DNA from: Tethya wilhelma
Taxonomy: Eukaryota; Porifera; Demospongiae; Tethyida; Tethyidae
DNA length: 64,000 nucleotides
Assembly (NCBI GenBank): GCA_964030475.1
Contig: CAXIPT010000003.1
Span: 3,944,499-4,008,498, forward strand
Direction: 5' to 3'
Positions 6,997-21,400 of the stretch are shown here, piece after piece (position 1 is the stretch's first letter; the number at the start of each line of letters is the position of its first letter). The translations under genes were made by a program, and so were the position numbers. The notes beneath the pieces are model-generated. The model saw only the letters and a program-made list of their open reading frames with translations. It searched no databases and had not been told where the DNA came from.

Positions 6997-8463
6997 ATGT
7001 CAAGACAGCTCCGCTTTAGCTTTTACTTGCTCGTCTTTACTGCAATAGTTGTAGTGTTGGTTTGCAATGTGTGGGTGTTTGACACATATCTGAGTCACTA
7101 CTTCTTCACTAGAAGTAAATCAATATGGGGCAGGCAGACTGACAGCAGAGAACCTCTGGTTCACGAAGAATCATGTGTGGAAACTTGCATTGCAGATTAT
7201 AGTGAAAACCCTGCTGTACTCAGTGATGCGTTCAGTCCACAGTCTGGATTTAATGGCTTGCTGAATGTGGAGGACACTATGACCAGCCAAACCAGAGGCT
7301 ATATGATCTCATTTCGTTTCTACGAGCAGCAAACTCAAGCGTCTCGCAACCTTTTGCAATTCCAGTGTTTGGCCAATTCAATTGGATCTGTTATTGTGGA
7401 ACCATTCATTGTAGAATCGCTATTTTCATTTCCATTCAACAAGTTTTCATTGACAAGTGATCCCACTGATGAGTTCTTGACTCTCACTGATTTAGTGAAC
7501 ATTGAGCTATGGAACAGAGAAGCACTGGAGCAGTTTGGGTATCAAGCTATGAAAAATTGGAGAGATTTCATTGAGAATGCACCGAAAAACATTATCATTC
7601 ATAGCATACGCTATCGTAAGCCACCGCTGAACACATCCTTCCCAGAAAGAGACTATAAAGTGGTGTGTCCAGATGAGTATTACAAACAGTTTGATCCAAG
7701 TCTTCAATTTCTTGGTCGGTATGGATTCAAGTTGGTCAGGAAATCGTGTTCTGACTTTACAAAGTCTTCAGAGCCTGTGCCTATGCAGACTTTTGTTGAA
7801 AATATTTTTGGTAAATATGAAGCAAGTGAAGTGACAGTATTGATAAATCAGTTCAGAGGGCTTTTTGGTTTCTACCGACTGCCAGTGCTATCAGAATGTG
7901 GCATCAAACATCATAAAATGAGTTTACCACTGATGCCTAGTGACAGGATCCAAACAGATGCCCAGAAGTATTCTAAAGAGGTGTTTGATGGCCGACCTTA
8001 CGTTGCTATCCTAGCGAGGATGGAGAGAGTGGTGTTGAGATACGATAACATTGATCAGTGCATAGATAAGCTTGATTCTGTTTTGAAGCAGTTAAAAGCC
8101 TCAAACAAAATATCGGACATTTTTCTTGCAATGGATGTCGGGAAGTTTGGCAGCCGTGGAGCTGCTGCTAAGAACTTGCAAACTCTTGGCGAGACACTGT
8201 TTCAGCACCTCTATCAGGAGAAGTGGTCGTTTAAGGAATGGGAGGACTCGTTTGAGAGAGTAGCCTCGAGCAATAATCCAGCTTATGTTGCTAATTTACA
8301 GAGAACAATTGCTGCCAATGGAGACTGCATTATTATGTTTGGCGGTGGGGGCTTTCAGGTGCAAGCTAGGTTACTTCATGAGAAGATTCATCCAGATTCA
8401 CAGTGTGTTTATCAAGTGTGCTTTATAAATCCAAGAGGGCTTGTAAATGGTCAATCAGAGTGA
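6997..8463 (+). CDS. Type A intronless single-pass membrane protein A1, possible glycosyltransferase
   Basis: An uninterrupted 488-codon frame from ATG 6997. Residues about 8-28 form one hydrophobic segment (YLLVFTAIVVVLVCNVWVF) preceded by few charges, giving a type II membrane topology typical of Golgi enzymes. The lumenal part has a conserved Cys-rich stem (ESCVETC), then GYMISFRFYEQQTQASRNLLQ, PFIVES, DEFLTLTDLV, VLINQFRG, RPYVAILARMERV, IFLAMDVGKFGS and, near the end, FGGGGFQVQA. The R-x-E in the RPYVAI strand and the late glycine-rich loop vaguely recall the protein O-fucosyltransferase superfamily. That is a guess, and I do not recognise the family firmly. Paralogues A2, A3 and type B follow in tandem. 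The lack of introns contrasts with neighbouring genes. Confidence 0.8.
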   Translation: MSRQLRFSFYLLVFTAIVVVLVCNVWVFDTYLSHYFFTRSKSIWGRQTDSREPLVHEESCVETCIADYSENPAVLSDAFSPQSGFNGLLNVEDTMTSQTRGYMISFRFYEQQTQASRNLLQFQCLANSIGSVIVEPFIVESLFSFPFNKFSLTSDPTDEFLTLTDLVNIELWNREALEQFGYQAMKNWRDFIENAPKNIIIHSIRYRKPPLNTSFPERDYKVVCPDEYYKQFDPSLQFLGRYGFKLVRKSCSDFTKSSEPVPMQTFVENIFGKYEASEVTVLINQFRGLFGFYRLPVLSECGIKHHKMSLPLMPSDRIQTDAQKYSKEVFDGRPYVAILARMERVVLRYDNIDQCIDKLDSVLKQLKASNKISDIFLAMDVGKFGSRGAAAKNLQTLGETLFQHLYQEKWSFKEWEDSFERVASSNNPAYVANLQRTIAANGDCIIMFGGGGFQVQARLLHEKIHPDSQCVYQVCFINPRGLVNGQSE

Positions 8464-8551
8464 TGTTCCAATTATTATAGTGTAAATTGTTGTTACCACA
8501 CAAAAATTAATAACTTTACCATAGAAAATTATCTATGACTTTACCCATTGA
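8464..8551. other. A1 3' flank
   Basis: A/T-rich spacer after the A1 stop; nothing recognisable is encoded. It runs into the remnant of a type B copy beginning about 8,552. Confidence 0.5.
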
Positions 8552-8610
8552 TGGTGCACGGGGCAATATTTAGAAACGCACTCCCAGTAGAAGAAAGGCG
8601 AAAAACAATG

Positions 8611-9422
8611 AAAGCACCACTGTGTGGCGCACAAGCCTCGGCACCCTGGCTAGCACACATACACATACACTGTGTAAAAGAGTGTATTATACCTACATGT
8701 ATGGCCCAGGTGTATCAACAAAACTAATCTACCAATCATAGTATAGTACTGAGGCCCAAGTTAGCCTATAGTCCCCAGGCTCCTCAGCTTAGTAGCCAGT
8801 CAGGCATGTAGTGAAGCTCACTGATACAAACAACACATCTAAGCTCAGTACTAGATCATATAATTTATGACACAGTTCTGAACTTCAGCCTCCTCATCTG
8901 CTCATCATTGCAGTCTGACCAAGCAACACTGCCAACAGTAAGAACAGTACTAGATCATACATTCACAGTTCTACAAAGTGTTATTTCACTTGAGTTACTT
9001 ACCTGACAAAGCAGCTATCTGATTTTAAATATAGTGAACTGGCCTGTACATCCGGGCCACTCTTAGTCTGGCTGGCCAGACTCTCCCCGTGCGAAGAGTC
9101 TGGCCAGCCAGACTAGGCCACTCTATGCAAGCTCAACTGTATTTCTAGATAACGCACATCACATGGGGCGTGATCGATGGGCGCGGTTTCGAAGCCTAAG
9201 CGCTCAGAGATGCACAAAAGCCTCAGATCTCAGAAACTACAGCATTTCGCAAGATCCTACACGACAAATTTCAAGATAATTTTGATTCATGAACGTAAGT
9301 ACCTTCCATTTGGACTCTACAGCTGCCGTTCTTCAGATAACTTAGTAACAGACGGACACACACACACACACACAAAACGACTACCATAACCCTCTGCACG
9401 TGCTACGCACGTGCCGAGGCTT
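8611..9422. mobile_element. About 0.8 kb insertion with 12-bp inverted ends inside the B remnant
   Basis: The insertion separates two stretches of type B similarity. AAGCCTCGGCAC (8633-8644) near its left side is matched by the exact complement GTGCCGAGGCTT (9411-9422) at its right end. It contains no coding frame of note, a short CA run (about 9,357-9,375) and the small hairpin element at 9064-9115. The left boundary lies about 20 bp outside the inverted repeat and no clear target duplication is seen, so the class is uncertain. Confidence 0.55.
9064..9115. mobile_element. 52-bp hairpin insertion with 9-bp target duplication
   Basis: Two perfectly complementary 21-base arms (9064-9084 and 9095-9115, starting TAGTCTGGCTGGCCAG) enclose a 10-base loop. 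The hairpin is flanked on both sides by GGCCACTCT (9055-9063 and 9116-9124), a 9-bp direct repeat that looks like a target-site duplication. Nine bases is the usual duplication length of Mutator-type elements. Confidence 0.75.
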
Positions 9423-10131
9423 AAGGTCTACCGGCTCCTCCTCTGGCACATTATGTGTGTCCAACGGTAGCGGTGGTCCTGCTCTTCGCTTACACAGGCA
9501 GAGACTCCTCAGTGAGCACGGAGTGCATCAGAGTTCCACAGGGATCTGGAGGAGGACATTAGAATAAGAGTATGATCAGCACAAAACGAATAGGTAGTAA
9601 TTAGTCTGGGAACGAGGCTACTAGAACTTCATTTCACGAAATTCGTGACCAGTGCAAGAACTTTTGTAGGAACTACTCCATTGAGAAGTCTGAACAGTGC
9701 TGAACTCAGTAGGGGTACTTATATTCAAGTTACTAACAGACTCATTTCGTTACTATGAGTATAGATAATATTATCTTTGCTATGAGCAACAAACTCAGGC
9801 TGCTTGTAACCTCTTAATAGATCTTTCAAACGCAGTGTTTTGGCGACTCATTTGGCCTTTCATTTTAAATTTGTCATTTGCGATTACCTTTCAACATTTC
9901 TCATCGTCCATTGATCCAACCAGTCAGTTCCTAACTCTCAGTGACCTAGTAGACACAGAGCTCATGAACAGAGAGGCATTCGACCAATATGGATACCACC
10001 CGATATCAAGTTGGAAGGATTTCATCGAGAAGGCTCCAAGACAGGTGATCACCCACTGCATACGGTATCACCATCCTCTCCACATCCCAACACCCCATCA
10101 GGGAGAGGATTATTATTGGAACTGCATATAA

Positions 10132-10979
10132 TTCTATATCACATTTGAGTTGGTGTGTATATGGTAGTTACTTGTACACTATCAGCATGGATATTATAGC
10201 TTATGTTATAATCTATGCTATCAGTATAAAGTCATGGTGAAGCATCTCAGGAGGCTGGAGCTGTATCTTACAAAATTTACTTGCTTTGCTCATCTTCTTA
10301 TAATGACAACTATGTAACAAAGTAGTCTATTCAACTCCTATTATTGAAGACTGAAAGGTACCGGTCCATGGTTACAGAGACTTCAGCACAACCAGAAATC
10401 TTCACGTAAAACAGGCAGGGCAGCGAATATTCGGATTCTAAATAACGCATACTTGTCTAACTGGAAAAGGGTCGTCAACTTGATTTCCACTGTAGCTAAT
10501 GAATTATTAATGAGTATAGAAATGAATGGCTGCCATACGGAGAAGGCGCTTTTCGTCTTGTATCTAGCGACTCAGCTAGAGAGGCAAATAACCGATACAA
10601 AAAGCACGTGAAGACAAAGAAACCAAGTTTATTCGTCCAAGAATCAGCTTCTGAAAGCGAGCGGTCTTCGAGAAAAGTCGTTCCAAGATAGAAGAAGAAG
10701 AAGAAGAAGAAGAAGAAGAAGAAGAAGAAGAAGAAGAAGAAGAAGAAGAAGAAGAAGAAGATGGAGAAAATTGGAGGTTTGGCATACTTTAGTTTGTTAC
10801 TTTAGCGATGGTTTTAGGCTATGTTTTTAGGCTCAATAGAAAGAGAAAAGGCTAAATAGTAGGTTAAGAAGCCTTTTAGTGCCAAGCGCTCAGTTTTTGC
10901 AGAGTTATTCGCGTGAATATGCGCTAATGGGCCATCCGTGCCATTCCTATGTACCCAGTACTACCGTACTGGGAATGAC
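10132..10979. other. Spacer with a GAA microsatellite
   Basis: No gene recognised in about 850 bp. It contains an uninterrupted (GAA)n run at about 10,690-10,760, more than 20 units. The apparent poly-Ser frame on the minus strand is only the repeat translated. Confidence 0.6.
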
Positions 10980-11764
10980 TTTACCCATTGATGGTGCACG
11001 GGGCAATATTTAGAAACGCACTTCCAGTAGAAGAAAGGCGAGAAACAACAAGGTCTACCGGCTGCTCCTCTGGTGTGTCCAACCATGGATATTATAGCTC
11101 GCGGTATCCATGGTCCAACAGTAGCGGTGGTCCTGCCCTTCGCTTTAATACACAGGCAGAGACTCCTCAGTGAGCAATACATCAGAGTTCCACAGGGCAG
11201 AGACTCCTCAGTGAGCACTGAGTGCATCAGAGTTCCACAGGGATCTGGAGAAGGACATTAGAATAAGAGTAATCCTGTATGATCAGCACAAAACGAATAG
11301 GTAGTAACTAGTCTGGGAACGAGGCTACTAGAACTTCATTTCATGAAATTCGTGACCAGTGCAAGAACTTTTGTAGGAACTACTCCATTGAGAAGTCTGA
11401 GCAGTGCTGAACTCAGTAGGGTACTGCTTGTAACCTCTTAATAGATCTTTCAAACGCAGTGTTTTGGCGACTCATTTGGCCTTTCATTTTAAATTTGTCA
11501 TTTGCGATTACCTTTCAACACTCTTATCATCCATTGGTATACAACCAGTCAGTTCCTAACTCTCAGTGACCTAGTAGACACAGAGCTCATGAACAGAGAG
11601 GCATTCAACCAATATGGATACTATCCGATATCAAGTTGGAAGGATTTCATCGAGAAGGCTCTGGAGGCAGGTGATCACCCACAGCATACGGTATATCGCC
11701 ATCCTCCCCACATCCCAACACCCCACCAGAGAGAGGATTATAAAGTTGAATGTCCAATATCCTC
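10980..11764 (+). pseudogene. Decayed type B copy 2
   Basis: Starts with the same upstream block as B copy 1 (CCCATTGATGGTGCACGG, GGGGCAATATTTAGAA). It continues through the signal-anchor region near 11,050 with a duplicated CAGAGACTCCTCAGTGAGCA stretch (about 11,155 and 11,201). It then keeps the LTLSDLVDTELMNREAFNQYGY part at about 11,550-11,620. Multiple indels break the frame and the C-terminal half is absent. It ends where similarity to the PPIL1 3' end begins. Confidence 0.75.
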
Positions 11765-11998
11765 GGTCATAATCAAAGGAATTGTGTACACTCTGTCGAC
11801 AGACACACTGCATATCCTGAGATGAATAGTGTGTGAAAAATTTTAATAGGTGCTAATGAGATTAAATGGCCGTTTAACTTTGAGCATGTATTTCTCAGAG
11901 TGACATAGGAATGATGATCACCAGGTCGACCAGGCTTCATTTCTCATTCATAAACTCAGAACGGAGCACTCGATCAATTTTAAAAAAGAGGAAGAGTT
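11765..11998. repeat. Duplicated PPIL1 terminal-exon relic plus A promoter
   Basis: AATCAAAGG, TGTACTCTGTC-like and GCATATCC..GAGATGAATAG motifs in the same order as the last intron, last exon and 3' flank of PPIL1 (about 6,775-6,900), followed by the region upstream of A1. The relic has lost the coding frame. It shows that the tandem unit carried the tail of PPIL1. Confidence 0.7.
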
Positions 11999-13426
11999 AT
12001 GTCAAGACAGCTCCACTTTATCTTCTACTTGCTCGTCTTTACTGCAATAGTTGTAGTGTTGGTTTGCAATGTGTGGGTGTTTGACACAGATCTGAGTCAT
12101 CACTTCTTTACTAGAAGTAAATCAGTGTGGGACAGGCAGACTGAGGACAGAGAACCTCTGCTTCAGGAAGAATCATGTTTAGAGACTTGCATTGCAGATC
12201 ATGTACGTGAAAACCCTGCTGTATTCAGTGATAGATTCAGTCCACAGTCTGGATTGAATGGCTTGCTGAATTTGGAGGATACTATGACCACCCAAAGCAG
12301 AGGCTACATGCTCTCATTTCGTTACTACGAGCAACAAACTCAAGCGTCTCGCAACCTTCTCCAATTGCAGTGTTTAGCTGATTCAATTGGATCTGTTATT
12401 GTGGAACCATTTATTGTAGAATCGTTATTTTCAATTCCATTCCACAAGTTTTCATTGACCAGTGATCCCACTGATGAGTTCTTGACTCTCACTGATTTAG
12501 TGGACACCGAGCTATGGAACAGAGAAGCACTGGAGCAGTTTGGCTACCAGGCCATGACAAGCTGGAGAGATTTCATTGAGAATGCACCGAGAAACATTAT
12601 CATTCATAGCATACGCTATCGTAAGCCACCACTGAACACATACCCGGTAAGAGACTATGAGGTAGTGTGTCCAGATGAGTATTACAAACAGTTTGATCCA
12701 AGTCTTCAATTTCTTGGTCGGTATGGATTCAAGTTGGTCAGGAAATCTTGTTCTGACTTTACAAAGTCTTCAGAGCCTGTGCCTATGCAGACTTTTATTG
12801 AAAATATTTTTGGTAAATATAAAGCAAGTGAAGTGACAGTATTGATAAATCAGTTCAGAGGGCTTTTCAGTTTCTACCGACTGCCAGTGCTATCAGAATG
12901 TGGCATCAAACACCACACTATGAGTTTACCACTGATACCTAGTGTTAGGATCCAAACAGATGCATGGAAGTATTCTAAAAAGGTGTTTGATGGTCGACCT
13001 TATGTTGCTATCCTAGCGAGGATAGAAAGAGTGGTGGAGAGATATGATGACATTGTTCAATGCATGGATAGGATTGACTCAATCTTGAAGCAGTTGAAAG
13101 CCTCAAACAAGATATCGGACACTTTCCTCACAATGGATGTGGGGAAGTTTGGCAGCCGCGGTGCCGCTACTAAGAACTTACAGCCTCTTGGCGAGACACT
13201 ATTTCAGCACCTCTATCAGGAGAAGTGGTCATTTAAGGAATGGGAGGACTCGTTTGAGAGAGTAGCCTCGAGCAATAATCCAGCTTATGTTGCTAATTTA
13301 CAAAGAACAGTTGCTGCCAATGGAAACTGTATTATTATGTTTGGTGGTGGGGGCTTTCAGGTGCAAGCTAGGTTACTCCATGAGAAGATTCATCCAGATT
13401 CACAGTGTGTTTATTATGTGTGCTAG
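11999..13426 (+). CDS. Type A membrane protein A2, possible glycosyltransferase
   Basis: Intact 475-codon frame, very similar to A1 along its length: same signal anchor, the Cys pair ESCLETC, PFIVES, QFRGLFSFYRLP, RPYVAILARIERV, DVGKFGSRG and FGGGGFQVQA. It ends earlier than A1, at VYYVC, so the A1 tail of about 13 residues is not conserved. The ATG is followed by the same S-R-Q-L sequence in all three A copies, which supports this start. It is preceded by the PPIL1 relic and followed by B remnant 3. Confidence 0.8.
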   Translation: MSRQLHFIFYLLVFTAIVVVLVCNVWVFDTDLSHHFFTRSKSVWDRQTEDREPLLQEESCLETCIADHVRENPAVFSDRFSPQSGLNGLLNLEDTMTTQSRGYMLSFRYYEQQTQASRNLLQLQCLADSIGSVIVEPFIVESLFSIPFHKFSLTSDPTDEFLTLTDLVDTELWNREALEQFGYQAMTSWRDFIENAPRNIIIHSIRYRKPPLNTYPVRDYEVVCPDEYYKQFDPSLQFLGRYGFKLVRKSCSDFTKSSEPVPMQTFIENIFGKYKASEVTVLINQFRGLFSFYRLPVLSECGIKHHTMSLPLIPSVRIQTDAWKYSKKVFDGRPYVAILARIERVVERYDDIVQCMDRIDSILKQLKASNKISDTFLTMDVGKFGSRGAATKNLQPLGETLFQHLYQEKWSFKEWEDSFERVASSNNPAYVANLQRTVAANGNCIIMFGGGGFQVQARLLHEKIHPDSQCVYYVC

Positions 13427-13560
13427 CTCCAAGAGGTCTTATAAATGCTCAATCAGAGTGATGCAGTAAATTTGTTGATAATGCAAACATTCCCTGGTTA
13501 GGTTTATTTGACCACAAACTTGTGACAAATAGGCCAATAACACCACCTACTGTGATCTTT
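13427..13560. other. A2 3' flank
   Basis: Short A/T-rich spacer related to the A1 and A3 3' flanks; nothing else seen. Confidence 0.4.
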
Positions 13561-14214
13561 AATAATTATGATGGTGGGGCAATATTTAGAAACACTTCTA
13601 GCACACAAAAGATATGGCGAAAAACAACAAGGTCTACTCGCTCCTCCTCTGTGTGTCACTGTGTCCAACGGTAGCCGTGGTCCTGCTCTTCGCTTACACA
13701 GGCAGAGACTCTTCAGTGAGCAGTGCATCAGAGTTCCACAGGGATCTGGAGGAGGACATTAGAATAAGAGTATGATCAGCACAAAACGAATAAGTAGAGT
13801 AAGAACTTTTGTAGGAACTACTCCATTGTCAATTTGAGAACAGTGCTCAACTCAGTAGGGGTACTATTAAATGTACTAACAGCCTGAACCAGCAGGGGCT
13901 ACCTCCTCTCATTTCGTTACTACGAGCAACAAACTCAGGCTGCTCGTAACCTCTTCCAAATGCAGTGTTTTGGCAACTCATTTGATCTATCAGTAGTAGA
14001 GCCTTTCATTTTAAATTCATCATTTACGATTACCTTTAGATCGAGGCATTCGATCAATATCAGTGGTTGGAAGGATTTCATCGAGAAGGCTCCGGAGGCA
14101 GGTGATCACCCACTGCATATACGGTATCACCATCCTCCCCACATCCCAACCCCTCACCAGGGAGAGGATTATAAAGTTGGATGTCGAATATCCTCGATTA
14201 AAACATAGATAATA
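13561..14214 (+). pseudogene. Decayed type B copy 3
   Basis: Contains the type B upstream motif, signal-anchor segment (about 13,630-13,700), the GYLLSFRYYEQQTQA coding block at about 13,897-13,945, PFILNS at 14,001, and a WKDFIEKAP block at about 14,070. A deletion removes the SSSIDPTSQFLTLSDL stretch and the rest of the protein. It is joined directly to a PPIL1 relic. Confidence 0.75.
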
Positions 14215-14458
14215 TATTATCTATGATTAAAATCAAAGGAATTGTGTACACTCTGTCGACAGACACACTGCATATCCTGTTGATTGAGATGAATAGAGTG
14301 TGAAAAATTTTAATAGGTGCTAATGAGATTAAATGGCCGTTTAACTTAGCATGTCTTTCTCAGAGTGACATAGGAATTATGATCACCAGGTCGACCAGGC
14401 TTCATTTCTCATTCATAAAAAGTCAAAACGGAGTACTCAATTCAAAAAAGAAAAAGTT
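14215..14458. repeat. Second PPIL1 terminal-exon relic plus A promoter
   Basis: Carries GATTAAAATCAAAGG, GCATATCCTGTTGATTGAG and GATGAATAG in PPIL1 order (compare 6,768-6,870), including the PPIL1 stop region, then the upstream region of A3 ending AAAAAGTT before the ATG. Confidence 0.75.
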
Positions 14459-15913
14459 ATGTCAAGACAGCTCCACTTTATCTTCTACTTGCTCGTCTTT
14501 ACTGCAATAGTTGTAGTGTTGGTTTGCAATGTGTGGGTGTTTGACACAGATCTAAGTCATCATTTCTTCACAAGAAGTAGATCAGTGTGGGGCAGGCAGA
14601 CTAACAGCAGAGAACCTCTGTTTCAGGAAGAATCATGTTTGGAGACTTGCATTGCAGATCATGTAAGTGAAAACCCTGCTGTACTCAGTGATGGGTTCAG
14701 TCCACAGTCTGGATTTAATGGCTTGCTGAATGTGGAGGACACTATGACCAGCCAAGGTAGAGGCTACATGCTCTCATTTCGTTACTGTGAGCAACAAACT
14801 CAAGCATCTGGCAACCTTCTCCAATTGCAGTGTTTGGCTGATTCAATTGGATCTGTCATTGTGGAACCATTTATTGTAGAATCGTTATTTTCAATTCCAT
14901 TCAACAAGTTTTCATTGACCAGTGATCCCACTGATGAGTTCTTGACTCTCACTGATATAGTGGACACTGAGCTATGGAACAGAGAAGCACTGGAGCAGTT
15001 TGGCTACCAGGCCATGACAAGCTGGAGAGATTTCATTGAGAATGCACCGAGAAACGTTATCACTCATAAGATTCAATATCCTGAGCCACCTCTAAATGTA
15101 TCCTACCCAGGAAGAGACTACGAAGTTGTGTGTCCAGATCAGTATTACAACGTTTTTGATCCAAGTCTTCAATTTCTTGAAAAATTCGGATTTAAGTTGG
15201 TCAGAAAGTCGTGTTCTGACTTTTCAAGCTCTTCAGAGCCTGTTCCTATGCAGACTTTCGTAGAGAATATTTTTGGCAAATACAAACCAAGTGAAGTAAC
15301 AGTTTTGATAAATCAGTTCAGAGGATTTTTTAGTTTCCATCGAGTGCCAGTGCTTTCAGAGTGTGGCATCAAACACCACACCATGAGTGTGCCTGTGATG
15401 CCTAGTGTTGGGATCCAAATGGATGCACGCAAGTATTCCAGAGAGGTGTTCGATGGCCGACCTTATGTGGCCATCATGATAAGGATAGAGAAGATAGTGC
15501 TGAGAAATGACAACATTAAACTGTGCACAAATAAAGTTGATTCTATTTTGAAGAAGTTGAAGGATTCACGCAAGATATCAGACATTTTTCTTGCAATGGA
15601 TGTGGGGAAGTTTGGCAGCCGTGGTGCTGCTGTTAAGAACTTACAGCCTGTTGGCGAGACACTGTTTCAGCACCTCTATCAGGAGAAGTGGTCGTTTAAC
15701 GAATGGGAAGATACATTTGAGAAAGTAGCTTCAAACAATAATCCAGCCTATATTGCCAGTTTACAGAAAGCTATTGCTGGCAATGGAGAATGTATTATTA
15801 CGATTGGTGGTGGGGGGTTTCAGGGGCAGGCTAGAATGTTTCATAAGAAGATTCGTCCAAATTCTCATTGTGTTTATGACCTGTGCTCCAAGAGGGCTCA
15901 TAAGAATGAATAA
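14459..15913 (+). CDS. Type A membrane protein A3, possible glycosyltransferase
   Basis: Intact 484-codon frame. The first third is nearly identical to A2, while the middle and end differ more (NVFDPSLQFLEKFGFK, IMIRIEKIVLRNDN, TIGGGGFQGQA), suggesting relaxed or diversifying change or a gene-conversion boundary. Signal anchor at residues about 8-28. The R-x-E strand is retained (MIRIEKI). It is followed after about 180 bp by the intact type B gene, giving the only complete A-B pair. Confidence 0.8.
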   Translation: MSRQLHFIFYLLVFTAIVVVLVCNVWVFDTDLSHHFFTRSRSVWGRQTNSREPLFQEESCLETCIADHVSENPAVLSDGFSPQSGFNGLLNVEDTMTSQGRGYMLSFRYCEQQTQASGNLLQLQCLADSIGSVIVEPFIVESLFSIPFNKFSLTSDPTDEFLTLTDIVDTELWNREALEQFGYQAMTSWRDFIENAPRNVITHKIQYPEPPLNVSYPGRDYEVVCPDQYYNVFDPSLQFLEKFGFKLVRKSCSDFSSSSEPVPMQTFVENIFGKYKPSEVTVLINQFRGFFSFHRVPVLSECGIKHHTMSVPVMPSVGIQMDARKYSREVFDGRPYVAIMIRIEKIVLRNDNIKLCTNKVDSILKKLKDSRKISDIFLAMDVGKFGSRGAAVKNLQPVGETLFQHLYQEKWSFNEWEDTFEKVASNNNPAYIASLQKAIAGNGECIITIGGGGFQGQARMFHKKIRPNSHCVYDLCSKRAHKNE

Positions 15914-16097
15914 GAAGTAGTGTTAATTGTTTATAATGCACATATTCACACTGTTCTGTTTGACCACAAAGAAGCCTAGCAGACCACATCATAATGATCT
16001 ATGACCACATGCTATGTCAGTGGCAGAGCACACCTAAATCATTGGTCACTGGCGGGTGGGGCAATATTTAGAATCCAATTCGCCCAGTAGACAAAAG
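15914..16097. promoter_or_regulatory. A3 3' flank and type B upstream region
   Basis: Contains the GGGGCAATATTTAGAATCC block at about 16,057 that also marks the start of every decayed B copy, so it is probably the B promoter or 5' UTR. Confidence 0.45.
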
Positions 16098-17540
16098 ATG
16101 GCAAGAAAAAAGGTCTACTCGCTTCTCCTCTTCCTGTGTCCAACGGTAGTAGTGGTCCTGCTCTTCGCAAACACAGGTAGAGACTCGTCAGATAGCAGAG
16201 TACCCCAAAGAGATCTGGAGCCAGTGGAGGTGGACACTAGAATCAGAGTAAGATCAGCACAAAACGAACAGGTCGTAACTAAAACTTCATTTTATGAAAT
16301 TCGTGACCAGTGCAAGAACTTTTGTAGGAACTACTCCATTGAGAACAGTGCTCAAATCAGTGGGGGTACTAATACTAACAGAACCAGCAGGGGTTACCTC
16401 CTCTCATTTCGTTACTACGAGCAACAAACTCAGGCTGCTCGTAACCTCTTCCAAATGCAGTGTTTTGGTGACTCATTTGATCTAGCAGTAGTAGAGCCTT
16501 TCATTTTAAATTCATCTTTTGCGATTACCTTTCAACACTTCTCATCGTCCATTGATCCAACCAGTCAGTTCCTAACTCTCAGTGACCTAGTAGACACAGA
16601 GCTCATGAACAGAGAGGCATTCGACCAATATGGATACCACCCGATGTCAAGTTGGAAGGATTTCATCGAGAAGGCTCCGAGACAGGTGATCACCCACTGC
16701 ATACGGTATCGCCATCCTCCCCACATCCCAACACCCCATCAGGGAGAGGATTTTAAAGTTGGATGTCCGAAAGAGTGCTTCAGTAAGTTTGACAAGAGCA
16801 TCAGTTTTCTCAAACGCTACGGATTCGAGCTAGTGAGGGAGTCGTGTTCGAACATCGCCCATTATGCTGGATCTATAATGCCAGAGAACTTCATGGAGAA
16901 TGTCTTAGGCAAATACAAGACAAGTGATGTGACAATTTTGATAAATGAGTTCAGAGGATTCTTTGGTCTCTATCGACTGCCAGTGCTTTCAGAGTGCGGC
17001 ATCAAACACCACAAGTTGAGTGTGCCTGTGATGCCCAGCGTTAGGATCCAAACAGATGCACGCAAGTACACCAGAGAGGTGTTCCATGGCCGACCTTATG
17101 TTGCTATCCTAGCAAGGATAGAAAGAGTGGTCTTCCAACTAAAATATGATATCACGCAATGTGCAAAAGAAGTGGATGCTATTTTAAAACAGTTGAGAGC
17201 TTCACACAAGATATCGGACATTTTTCTTGCAATGGACGTAGGGAAATTTGGCAGCCAAGGAGCATATCTCAAAAAGCTGCAGCCTCATGGAGAAACACTG
17301 TTTCAGCACCTCTATCAGGAGAGCTGGTCCTTCAAACAATGGGAGGAGACATTTGAGAGATTTGCTTCGAGCAATAATTCAGCGTATGTGGCTAATTTAC
17401 AGCGAACAATTGCCGCCAAAGGAGACTGCATCATCATGTTTGGTGGCGGGGGGTTCCAGACCCAGGCCAGAACACTCTACAGGAAGTTCCATCCTGGATC
17501 CAAGTCACAGTGTGTCTTTAAAGTGTGCAGTGATGACTGA
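16098..17540 (+). CDS. Type B membrane protein, only intact copy
   Basis: Start placed at the ATG at 16098 (M-A-R-K-K), directly before the hydrophobic anchor VYSLLLFLCPTVVVVLLF; the frame is open upstream but has no earlier ATG. 480 residues. The lumenal part is homologous to type A across its length: GYLLSFRYYEQQTQAARNL, VVEPFILNSSF, LTLSDLVDTELMNREAF, VTILINEFRGFFGLYRLP, RPYVAILARIERV, IFLAMDVGKFGSQG and MFGGGGFQTQA. Three truncated relatives upstream show that B copies were duplicated with A and then lost. Function unknown; type II Golgi enzyme is the best guess. Confidence 0.8.
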   Translation: MARKKVYSLLLFLCPTVVVVLLFANTGRDSSDSRVPQRDLEPVEVDTRIRVRSAQNEQVVTKTSFYEIRDQCKNFCRNYSIENSAQISGGTNTNRTSRGYLLSFRYYEQQTQAARNLFQMQCFGDSFDLAVVEPFILNSSFAITFQHFSSSIDPTSQFLTLSDLVDTELMNREAFDQYGYHPMSSWKDFIEKAPRQVITHCIRYRHPPHIPTPHQGEDFKVGCPKECFSKFDKSISFLKRYGFELVRESCSNIAHYAGSIMPENFMENVLGKYKTSDVTILINEFRGFFGLYRLPVLSECGIKHHKLSVPVMPSVRIQTDARKYTREVFHGRPYVAILARIERVVFQLKYDITQCAKEVDAILKQLRASHKISDIFLAMDVGKFGSQGAYLKKLQPHGETLFQHLYQESWSFKQWEETFERFASSNNSAYVANLQRTIAAKGDCIIMFGGGGFQTQARTLYRKFHPGSKSQCVFKVCSDD

Positions 17541-18463: not shown

Positions 18464-21400
18464 CAATGCAGAAGAAAAAATGGATGGATACATATATTAT
18501 GTGAATGGCATATTCAGGCCCAAGATCGACAGCTGCTAAAGACAAACCTGTTTCTCAGCAGCTGGATGAGAATGTAGTTGCCTCTATTTGTTCCAGGATC
18601 ATTCATCCTGAGCACAGAAAGTGGCAAGTGTGAGTGATCACTAGCTATATAACTGTAATCATATTATACTTACTCAGACATCATTTCATCAGACATACGT
18701 CGAATCACCAACACTGGACCATGATATCTACACAAACACACATTGAGTGAAGTCCTGATTCAAAGAAAGGAAAGAGAGAGGAATTTGCTATACCTGCACA
18801 GCTGCTCAGCAATGTTGAGATTGTAGTACTCACTGACCATCCCTCTACAGAATGAATCTGGAGAGAAAACACAACGTTGTGTAACATGAAGGTAGATCAC
18901 AAGTAGTAAGTTGACTACTTACGTAAATAGGGACTAACTCGTGCCTTTACAAGTGGAAAGAGTTCATCAAACGAGGCATCAATCACCTGCAAGGGAGGTG
19001 CACATGACTAATTGGATACAGTTGGACATGATCACTAGTCTACCAATCTTACCACTGCTCCAATGTCAGGGTAGCTCATGGCAGCACAAGTAGCAGAATA
19101 CCCACCTACAGGGACAGAAAGATAATACATAATCATATCAGTGTGAAATGACGTGCATTTATAAGAGAACAGGACAGTTAATGATCAGGCCGTACTACTA
19201 TACAAGCTCTTGGATATAAATAGCACCGTAAGAGGGTGGTACTTGCTGGCTCTGTCAAGTGGTTACTTCGTTTGAGCCCCAAATGTTCAGCGAGTCAGTC
19301 GCTCACTGACTCCCCAGTTCAACACTGGGATGAACCGAATCCACCACTGACGCAATCCAGCACTTTTATCTCTTTTCCAACCATAGAATGGTCTAACGAT
19401 GGTTAATTTTCACTTTCTGGCAGTCATTAGAAGGTGAAATAGGTGCAAACCATTTAATTGGGCAATGTTAGTACTACAAGCAACAATATTCACTGAAATT
19501 TTAATATTATTCATACAGCTATACAACTGTACATTTGTATGTCATTCAGTGAAACATTGCTATTACATGATACATTCTTTGAGCTTTGAAGACTGCATTT
19601 TATTCACTATAAACAGAGTACAATGTAATGCATACCATTATTTTGCTATAAATAGTCACCTTTTGTGTGTCTCCACGCTGGCTAAGTCATGTGGATACTT
19701 CGTTAACATATTGGAAATGTATCTGACCGTCACTCAGCAAAACCGGGTTCGATTCCCGGGCGAGCCTTTCCACAGACGCAATCCAGCACTTTTACTTTTT
19801 TTTTTTCAAAGAATGTATCACCAGAAACACTCACTCTTTCTTTTAATAGAGGTATAAAAGTATTACTTACCAGGAATTGCTTTTTTTGCTGTTACCAAAG
19901 TGTAATGTACAAATAGGCTTGAGTTGTCTCATTTTCACTTCAACCGACACTTGTTTGAAGACTATATTTTACAGGCTATAAGAAAGTAAACGAATACCAC
20001 TTGCTATAAATAGCCACTTTTCATAACTCCTTCTGCTGGCTAGGTCATGTGGATACTTCGTTAACATATTGGAAATGTATCTGACTCCAGATCAGCAAAA
20101 CCGGGTTTGATTCCCGGGCGAGCCTTTCCACAGACGCAATCCAGCACTTTTATCTTTTTTCCTAACAAAAAATCGCCTGAAACACTTACTCATTCTTTTA
20201 AAAGAGCTATGAAAGCAGTTGTATAACACGAGTTGTTTTTTGTGCCACAAAGTCCTGCTTTTCTAAACTTATTCATGACTAGTGTAGGAGTATTTGTACA
20301 CCCATTTGCTATAAATAGTCACTGCATGTAACTCTACCTGCTGGCTATGTCATGTGGATACTTCGTTAACATATTGGAAATGTATCTGACTCTTAATCAG
20401 CTAAACCGGGTTCAATTCCCGGGCGAGCCTTTCCACAGACGCAATCCAGCACTTTTACCTTTTTTTCTAAGAATGTATCACCCAAAACACTCACTCTTTC
20501 TTTTTTAAAGAGGTAAAGAAGTATTAGTTTAGCAGGAATAGTTTTTTTTGTGTGTGTGTCACATTGTTTTCTTTAGCCATTGCAATAGCTTTGGTGGTCG
20601 ATAGAACCTTGCTGCAACTGGTAGGCAGCATAATGATGATGCAACTACCACTTCACCTAAATTCACCCCTAGCCCTGTTTGACGCTTACCTATTGACCAG
20701 GCAAACAGTATAATGTCCTCGAATGCAAACCCCAGCTGGCTGACGGTGAATCGTATCACAACATCAATGGCATTGAACTCCTGCTCAGGAAATGGCAGTC
20801 CCTATAACAACCATACAACAAAATTAATCCTCAATTTGTAAGGATGTATTGAAGTGAAGGGAGGGATTATAATCATGAACATATTGATACATATTACTTA
20901 CTGTCGAATCTCCAAAGCCAGGATGGTTCCATCCTATGGCTGAATATCCACCTACACGGATACACACAAACACACAGTGGTTGCTATAGTATTGTACACG
21001 AGCATGCACGCACACACACACACTCACGGCTAAGAGGAATCTCCATCATGCCTAGCTCATAAAACGCAGCATTTCCCTCACAGCAGATGACCACTTTGTT
21101 CCCCTTGGCAGTCACATCTGGTGAGCCTCTCTTGTCAACAAACATACAGTCAATAGTGTTCCCACCAACTGCCAACAGTCTGGCACGATAGGCATCATGC
21201 TGCACATGTGAGGGAGTGGGTGGGTATTCTTAATAGAGCCCAACATTAAAAGAATTAAGACTTACATTTCTTTTCATCTTAGTTCTGCCTACTGAGAGGT
21301 GGGTACCTGAAACAAACAAACAAATAATAAGGATGATCACCCAATTGTAATAAGATGTGTCGACCATTTTGTGCGAGGTACACATGTACTATCGACTAAC

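Follow-up and report, generated by a model that had tools for sequence, protein, structure and literature searches.

What function vault RNA has is a question of long standing. PMC10498592 assigns the human vault RNA genes to the type 2-hybrid class of Pol III genes, which have both internal and upstream elements. TEP1 is named as a vault protein in PMC11855390, and PMC11277228 gives the TROVE domain as common to TEP1 and Ro60. Vault RNA has also been listed for the cnidarian Hydractinia by Rfam-based annotation, according to PMC11067881; thus, vault RNA outside the bilaterians is not new. In human VTRNA1 triple knock-out cells, PMC13404743 reports no sensitisation to the tRNA-cutting SLFN11 and only a modest effect of menadione. 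These results mean that a link between vault RNA and tRNA enzymes, which a vault RNA shaped like tRNA would fit, is not established in humans.

In their build, the genes described here find their nearest analogy in the YrlA-type Y RNAs of bacteria, in which a stem that binds a TROVE protein (Ro) is joined to a tRNA-like module. The sponge genes are predicted to be eukaryotic Pol III genes, their reported Rfam matches include no Y RNA family, and we know of no parallel in bacterial Y RNAs to their diversified anticodon loops.

In the present study, we analysed a 64-kb stretch of DNA (the window) and the 124.6 Mb assembly to which it belongs. The sponge origin assigned by the first-pass annotation was confirmed, as the cytochrome b encoded on a mitochondrial-type contig of this assembly shares 98% identity with that of Tethya sp., 96% with that of T. 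minuta, and 93% with that of T. citrina; by this sequence comparison, the genome is that of a Tethya-type demosponge. The window contains four tandem genes of the vault RNA type, all on the + strand. Our best explanation, to which we assign a probability of about 0.7, is that these genes and their relatives elsewhere in the genome encode Pol III vault RNAs that carry an unchargeable tRNA mimic as their central domain. The computed features behind this explanation are the family match, the promoter spacing, a cloverleaf with covariation, and the diversity of the anticodons. In the literature that we searched (among it PMC10914904, PMC13404743, PMC10498592, PMC11277228, and PMC11067881), neither a vault RNA from a sponge nor one with a tRNA-like domain is described, and the novelty of both is limited to that literature; Stadler et al. 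2009, 'Evolution of vault RNAs', lies outside it and could contain related cases.

Vault RNA genes in the window and in the genome

The first-pass annotation had proposed four tandem vault RNA genes in the window, with copy 1 as the most divergent, and had named the Rfam covariance model beforehand as a refuting test. All four copies scored above the gathering score of the Vault model (RF00006; 34): copy 1 (19243..19367) with 41.5 bits, copy 2 (19675..19793) with 40.1 bits, copy 3 (20033..20151) with 37.5 bits, and copy 4 (20338..20456) with 37.1 bits, at E values from 8.9e-6 to 1.6e-4 in 64 kb. The alignments span model positions 1 to 99, that is, the full length of the model. The features tested therefore support the assignment of the window genes to the vault RNA family, and copy 1 is the most divergent. 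That first reading was supported as to the family and incomplete in other respects, since it missed a tRNA cloverleaf around the B box, anticodons that are specific to each copy, and six further genes.

The four genes lie in an intron (19106..20689, - strand) of an ABHD16A-like gene. The intron boundaries were read by eye from splice sites and exon frames on the - strand; thus, the RNA genes are antisense to their host. The exons joined in this way match Pfam Abhydrolase_1 (4.8e-7), and the name ABHD16A is given for a presumed similarity to the human protein. The intron was also said to split the G-x-S-x-G codons. It does interrupt the codon of the last Gly in F-A-W-S-I-G, where Ala takes the place of the first residue of the motif.

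TATA boxes at 19215..19222, 19647..19654, 20005..20012, and 20310..20317 (all + strand), identified by their spacing and by a scan for the layout, precede GCTGG by exactly 30 bp in all four window copies, and TATA stands at -30 in all ten copies found genome-wide (see below). The pattern TATA-26 nt-GCTGG-4..12 nt-GTGG matched the four vault genes and nothing else on both strands of the window; its matches on one strand of 200 mononucleotide shuffles summed to two. The A-box region GTGG.TACTTCG was present in every window copy. A B box of the GGTTCGATTCC type had been claimed for three copies, which is true in a loose sense: copies 2 and 4 carry the exact form GGTTCRANNCC, copy 3 reads GGTTTGATTCC, and copy 1 lacks a B box. 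Genome-wide, seven of ten copies have the exact B box and two have a strict A box. The TTTT end also proved to be present in each window copy, 2 nt past CCAGC. In all ten copies TTTT follows CCAGC by 0-7 nt and is absent internally, the latter being weak evidence for any one copy because 19-43% of shuffles contain an internal run. With TATA at -30 throughout and the internal boxes in exact form in part of the copies, the layout of the sponge genes resembles that of the human vault RNA genes.

The 3' vault signature CCACNGACGCNATCCAGC, with at most one mismatch, was found at ten places in the assembly, and the 5' signature was found at nine, namely all of these except window copy 1; the control with the reversed pattern gave no place in either case. 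Besides the four genes of the window, which is on contig C3, there are five on contig C2 (17.3345-17.3359 Mb; RF00006 42.3, 37.5, 36.3, 32.6, and 29.0 bits) and one on contig C1 (25.5254 Mb; 37.2 bits). The Vault model was thus above its cut-off in eight of the ten copies, and the last two on C2 were below it. Of 5712 candidates in the genome, the Vault family search scored 49 and matched eight. The count of ten comes from the two pattern searches, so a copy without either signature would escape it. Like the window array, the C2 array is in an intron, that of a WDR35/IFT121 gene (PF25170, 1.8e-25), and in sense orientation; host introns therefore hold nine of the ten genes as two tandem arrays. 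Neither signature matched the general genome-contig or viral-contig collections, which are without sponge genomes as such. The C1 copy looks as if it had been duplicated from C2 copy 3 together with the upstream flank, and directly downstream of it units of about 30 bp are repeated in tandem (L010:1540-1760).

The tRNA-like central domain

Beyond Vault, the only Rfam matches above threshold in the whole window were three to the tRNA model (RF00005; cut-off 29), each inside one of copies 2-4. The cores were placed at 19697..19767 in copy 2 (31.7 bits at 19704-19759; ends set to correspond to those that ARAGORN gave for the other two), at 20055..20125 in copy 3 (ARAGORN; 32.4 bits at 20062-20117), and at 20360..20430 in copy 4 (ARAGORN; 36.6 bits at 20367-20422), all on the + strand. 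The five C2 copies scored 40.1-51.7 bits, and RF00005 was thus above the cut-off in eight of the ten copies (31.7 to 51.7 bits). It did not match window copy 1, which gives a three-armed junction as a single-sequence fold, nor the C1 copy, which has lost most of its T arm. ARAGORN called a tRNA in seven of the ten, and none in human vtRNA1-1.

We folded an alignment of eight copies (A1; C3 copy 1 and the C1 copy excluded) with RNAalifold, with no structure supplied. In the consensus, the outer stems of the vault type close onto D, anticodon, and T arms: GCUGG/CCAGC is followed by GUC..UGUGGA/UCCACA..GAC, by a short closing stem, and then by the three arms. The pairing of the 5' and 3' ends noticed in the first-pass annotation is therefore part of the consensus. 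The two outer helices never vary among the eight copies; thus, the pairing there is without support from covariation.

Covariation was counted on a structure written from the RNAalifold fold, against shuffles that take no account of relatedness. In this structure 97.2% of cells pair, versus at most 48.8% when the partners are slid. Double-sided changes occur in 16 cells, compared with 5.8+-1.8 in the shuffles (0 of 500 as high), and are confined to the three tRNA-type arms. Two other counts speak against covariation: five pairs show double changes, which is not unusual (127 of 500 shuffles as high), and the seven further pair types are fewer than in the shuffles (500 of 500 as high).

The lowest-energy folds of single sequences were mixed. 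C3 copies 2 and 4 gave a full cloverleaf with the closing stem, and C3 copies 1 and 3 as well as C2 copies 1 and 2 came near to it. C2 copies 3, 4, and 5 and the C1 copy took up other structures in the centre, and in C2 copy 5 the outer vault stems did not form either. Despite this, the sequence landmarks of tRNA speak for the cloverleaf: in the nine copies other than window copy 1, U8, A14, and the GG of the D loop are kept in 8, 9, and 9, respectively, and the T loop reads TTCRA in all except window copy 3 (the T loop of the C1 copy was found by a script, and the other eight were read from the alignment). The best reading of the modelled fold and the landmarks is that the central domain of these vault RNAs is a tRNA cloverleaf core. 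Compared with other vault RNAs, the sponge genes share the full-length model match, the outer stems, the TATA box (with exact internal boxes in part of the copies), the T-run end, the tandem arrangement, and a genome that encodes MVP domains. They differ in this cloverleaf, which is about 20 nt longer than the central domain of the vertebrate type, and in that each copy with an anticodon carries another triplet.

Diversity of the anticodon loops

No two of the nine copies with an anticodon share the same triplet. In the window, the loops are CCGTCAC in copy 2 (19727-19733; triplet GTC), as read from the sequence and alignment, CTCCAGA in copy 3 (20085-20091), and CTCTTAA in copy 4 (20390-20396), all on the + strand; the latter two are identical to sampled loops of tRNA-Trp and tRNA-Lys-CTT, respectively, of the same genome. 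The C2 loops are TTCGCTC, CTGCCGC, TTAGGGT, CTAATAA, and CTAAAAA, and the C1 loop is TTCGGAT. The sampled tRNA nearest to the cores of C3 copies 2-4 is Asp-GTC, so copy 2, with its triplet GTC, may represent the starting state.

The strongest alternative, to which we give about an even chance, is that the tRNA-like core serves these vault RNAs only as a promoter (A and B boxes) and a scaffold, and that the anticodon loop drifts free of selection. If the loop between the boxes had drifted in this way, its matches to real tRNA loops would mean little. On a tree built from the rest of the gene, with the nine copies other than C3 copy 1, columns 32-38 of the loop require 3, 1, 4, 4, 6, 3, and 4 changes (25 parsimony changes in total), whereas the 112 columns outside the loop average 0.56 changes and never exceed 3. 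It speaks against free drift that U33 is the quietest loop column, with one change against 4, 4, and 6 at positions 34-36. The rates themselves suit drift better: in the eight copy pairs compared, of 45 possible, the loop outpaces the rest of the gene in six (p<0.05) and the flanks, which differ by 29-55%, in just one (p=0.008, uncorrected), so that its rate is near that of the flanks. We therefore do not claim that the loop changes faster than neutral sequence. Several loops are also imperfect as tRNA loops, such as those with C33 in C3 copy 2 and T37 in C2 copy 1.

Three of the nine loops are identical to sampled tRNA loops of the same genome (Trp-CCA, Lys-CTT, and Pro-AGG), and four more are one base off. 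The catalogue contained 18 loops, remaining from 30 kinds after exclusion of 12 judged mitochondrial or repeat-derived, and it is biased, as the query was enriched for isotypes mostly guessed from the vault loops themselves. When random triplets were placed with positions 32, 33, 37, and 38 fixed, at least three exact matches arose with p=0.004, and the summed distance to the catalogue gave p below 1e-5. When the observed triplets were dealt among the copies, the corresponding values were p=0.027 and p=0.0008. With 48 loops (30 further tRNA loops and the 18 sampled), there were four exact matches (p=0.012 random, 0.010 shuffled), and the summed distance gave p=0.0003 for random triplets and 0.0017 for triplets shuffled among copies. 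All of these tests ignore common descent. The modest p values of the exact matches with the enriched 18-loop catalogue (0.004-0.027) leave room for drift; the better fit of the triplets to their own 37/38 context than to that of other copies (p 0.0008 and 0.0017 with 18 and 48 loops, respectively) argues against it. The fourth exact match, to Ile-AAT (C2 copy 4), was not confirmed in the genome. The pattern search for it gave three places, namely the vault copy, one repeat-like match to the tRNA model, and one further place, with one place for the reversed control, so that the fourth match is tentative.

Other origins and possible roles

The genes might instead encode another Pol III RNA that is not a vault RNA by descent, the likeness of the outer stem being due to shared promoter boxes. 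The scores in the window exceed the Vault cut-off by a small margin (3-8 bits), two of the ten copies are below it, and the central domain is unlike that of human vault RNA. However, the match extends over the whole model, where the 3' GCGC.UCC.GC segment is no promoter element, and the genome encodes MVP domains; we consider this origin improbable. The MVP shoulder domain (PF11978) was found at two places, C2:19.641-19.645 Mb and C7:0.226 Mb, and by these domain matches the sponge genome probably has more than one MVP gene. TEP1_N had no match in the genome, and its controls were equally silent. Two near-equal shoulder matches lie 3 kb apart on C2.

Less probable still is that genuine tRNAs lie within a longer transcript and are excised from it for translation. 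ARAGORN names seven with different anticodons, and RF00005 reaches 51.7 bits. D, anticodon, and T arms are shared with tRNA, as are U8, A14, GG, and TTCRA in nearly all copies and canonical loops in some. A 7-pair acceptor with free CCA ends was not found; instead, a short, interrupted closing stem of 4 or 5 pairs passes through internal loops into the vault stem and is continuous with it. Two copies have no match to the tRNA model, and ordinary Asp, Trp, Lys, Gly, Pro, and Ala tRNA genes are present elsewhere in the genome. We reject functional tRNA genes on the acceptor end: the sponge RNAs, TATA-led and embedded in vault stems, are not tRNAs because a free acceptor end is missing.

Copies of a tRNA-derived SINE, which the first-pass annotation had set as a refuting outcome, are the least probable of all and are rejected, for tRNA-derived repeat families do exist in the genome, but the signature occurs at ten places only in 124.6 Mb (nine in two tandem arrays; none for the backwards pattern), and the TATA box has a fixed position at -30, upstream of the transcribed part.

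We thus return to vault RNAs with an unchargeable tRNA mimic, from which we infer transcription, vault binding, protein docking, and any anticodon-specific role. RNA polymerase III would transcribe the genes from the TATA box fixed at -30 together with the internal promoter boxes, and the T run would end transcription. The outer vault stems would lengthen the acceptor stem of the tRNA considerably, with interruptions; as this leaves the tRNA-like part without a free 3' CCA end, it should not be chargeable in the usual way. The outer stem may dock the RNA to the vault, to its RNA-binding partner, or to a TROVE protein. The tRNA elbow formed by the D and T arms might then be displayed, perhaps along with the anticodon arm, to tRNA-handling proteins, such as modification, repair, and cleaving enzymes, with each paralogue presenting a different triplet.

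Mimicry of tRNA at the level of the elbow seems to us reasonably likely. An anticodon-specific function is plausible but less likely than not. Equally tentative is the idea of an anticodon-mimic array, in which different anticodon arms on unchargeable tRNA bodies would bait, sense, or divert the enzymes by which tRNA anticodon loops are cut, modified, or mended. If that idea were true, the short central domain and the B box of vertebrate vault RNA might be remains of a tRNA fold. The tRNA-mimic domain offers a concrete hypothesis for the function of vault RNA, namely that tRNA-handling enzymes are dealt with by vaults or by the RNA partners of vaults. The ten copies are natural variants on which to test it. 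The finding also bears on the origin of vault RNA in early animals.

Some further features were observed. Sequences like Ala-AGC and Ser/Leu tRNAs, which are tRNA-derived repeats or large tRNA-like families, are near-identical on many contigs (L044-L046, L056-L073). In the window, four single-exon open reading frames of 475-494 aa in the same direction, without a Pfam match, occupy 6997-17540. Between 34186 and 48779 there are tandem single-exon open reading frames of about 530-633 aa, and the four that we tested match PTR2/POT peptide transporters.
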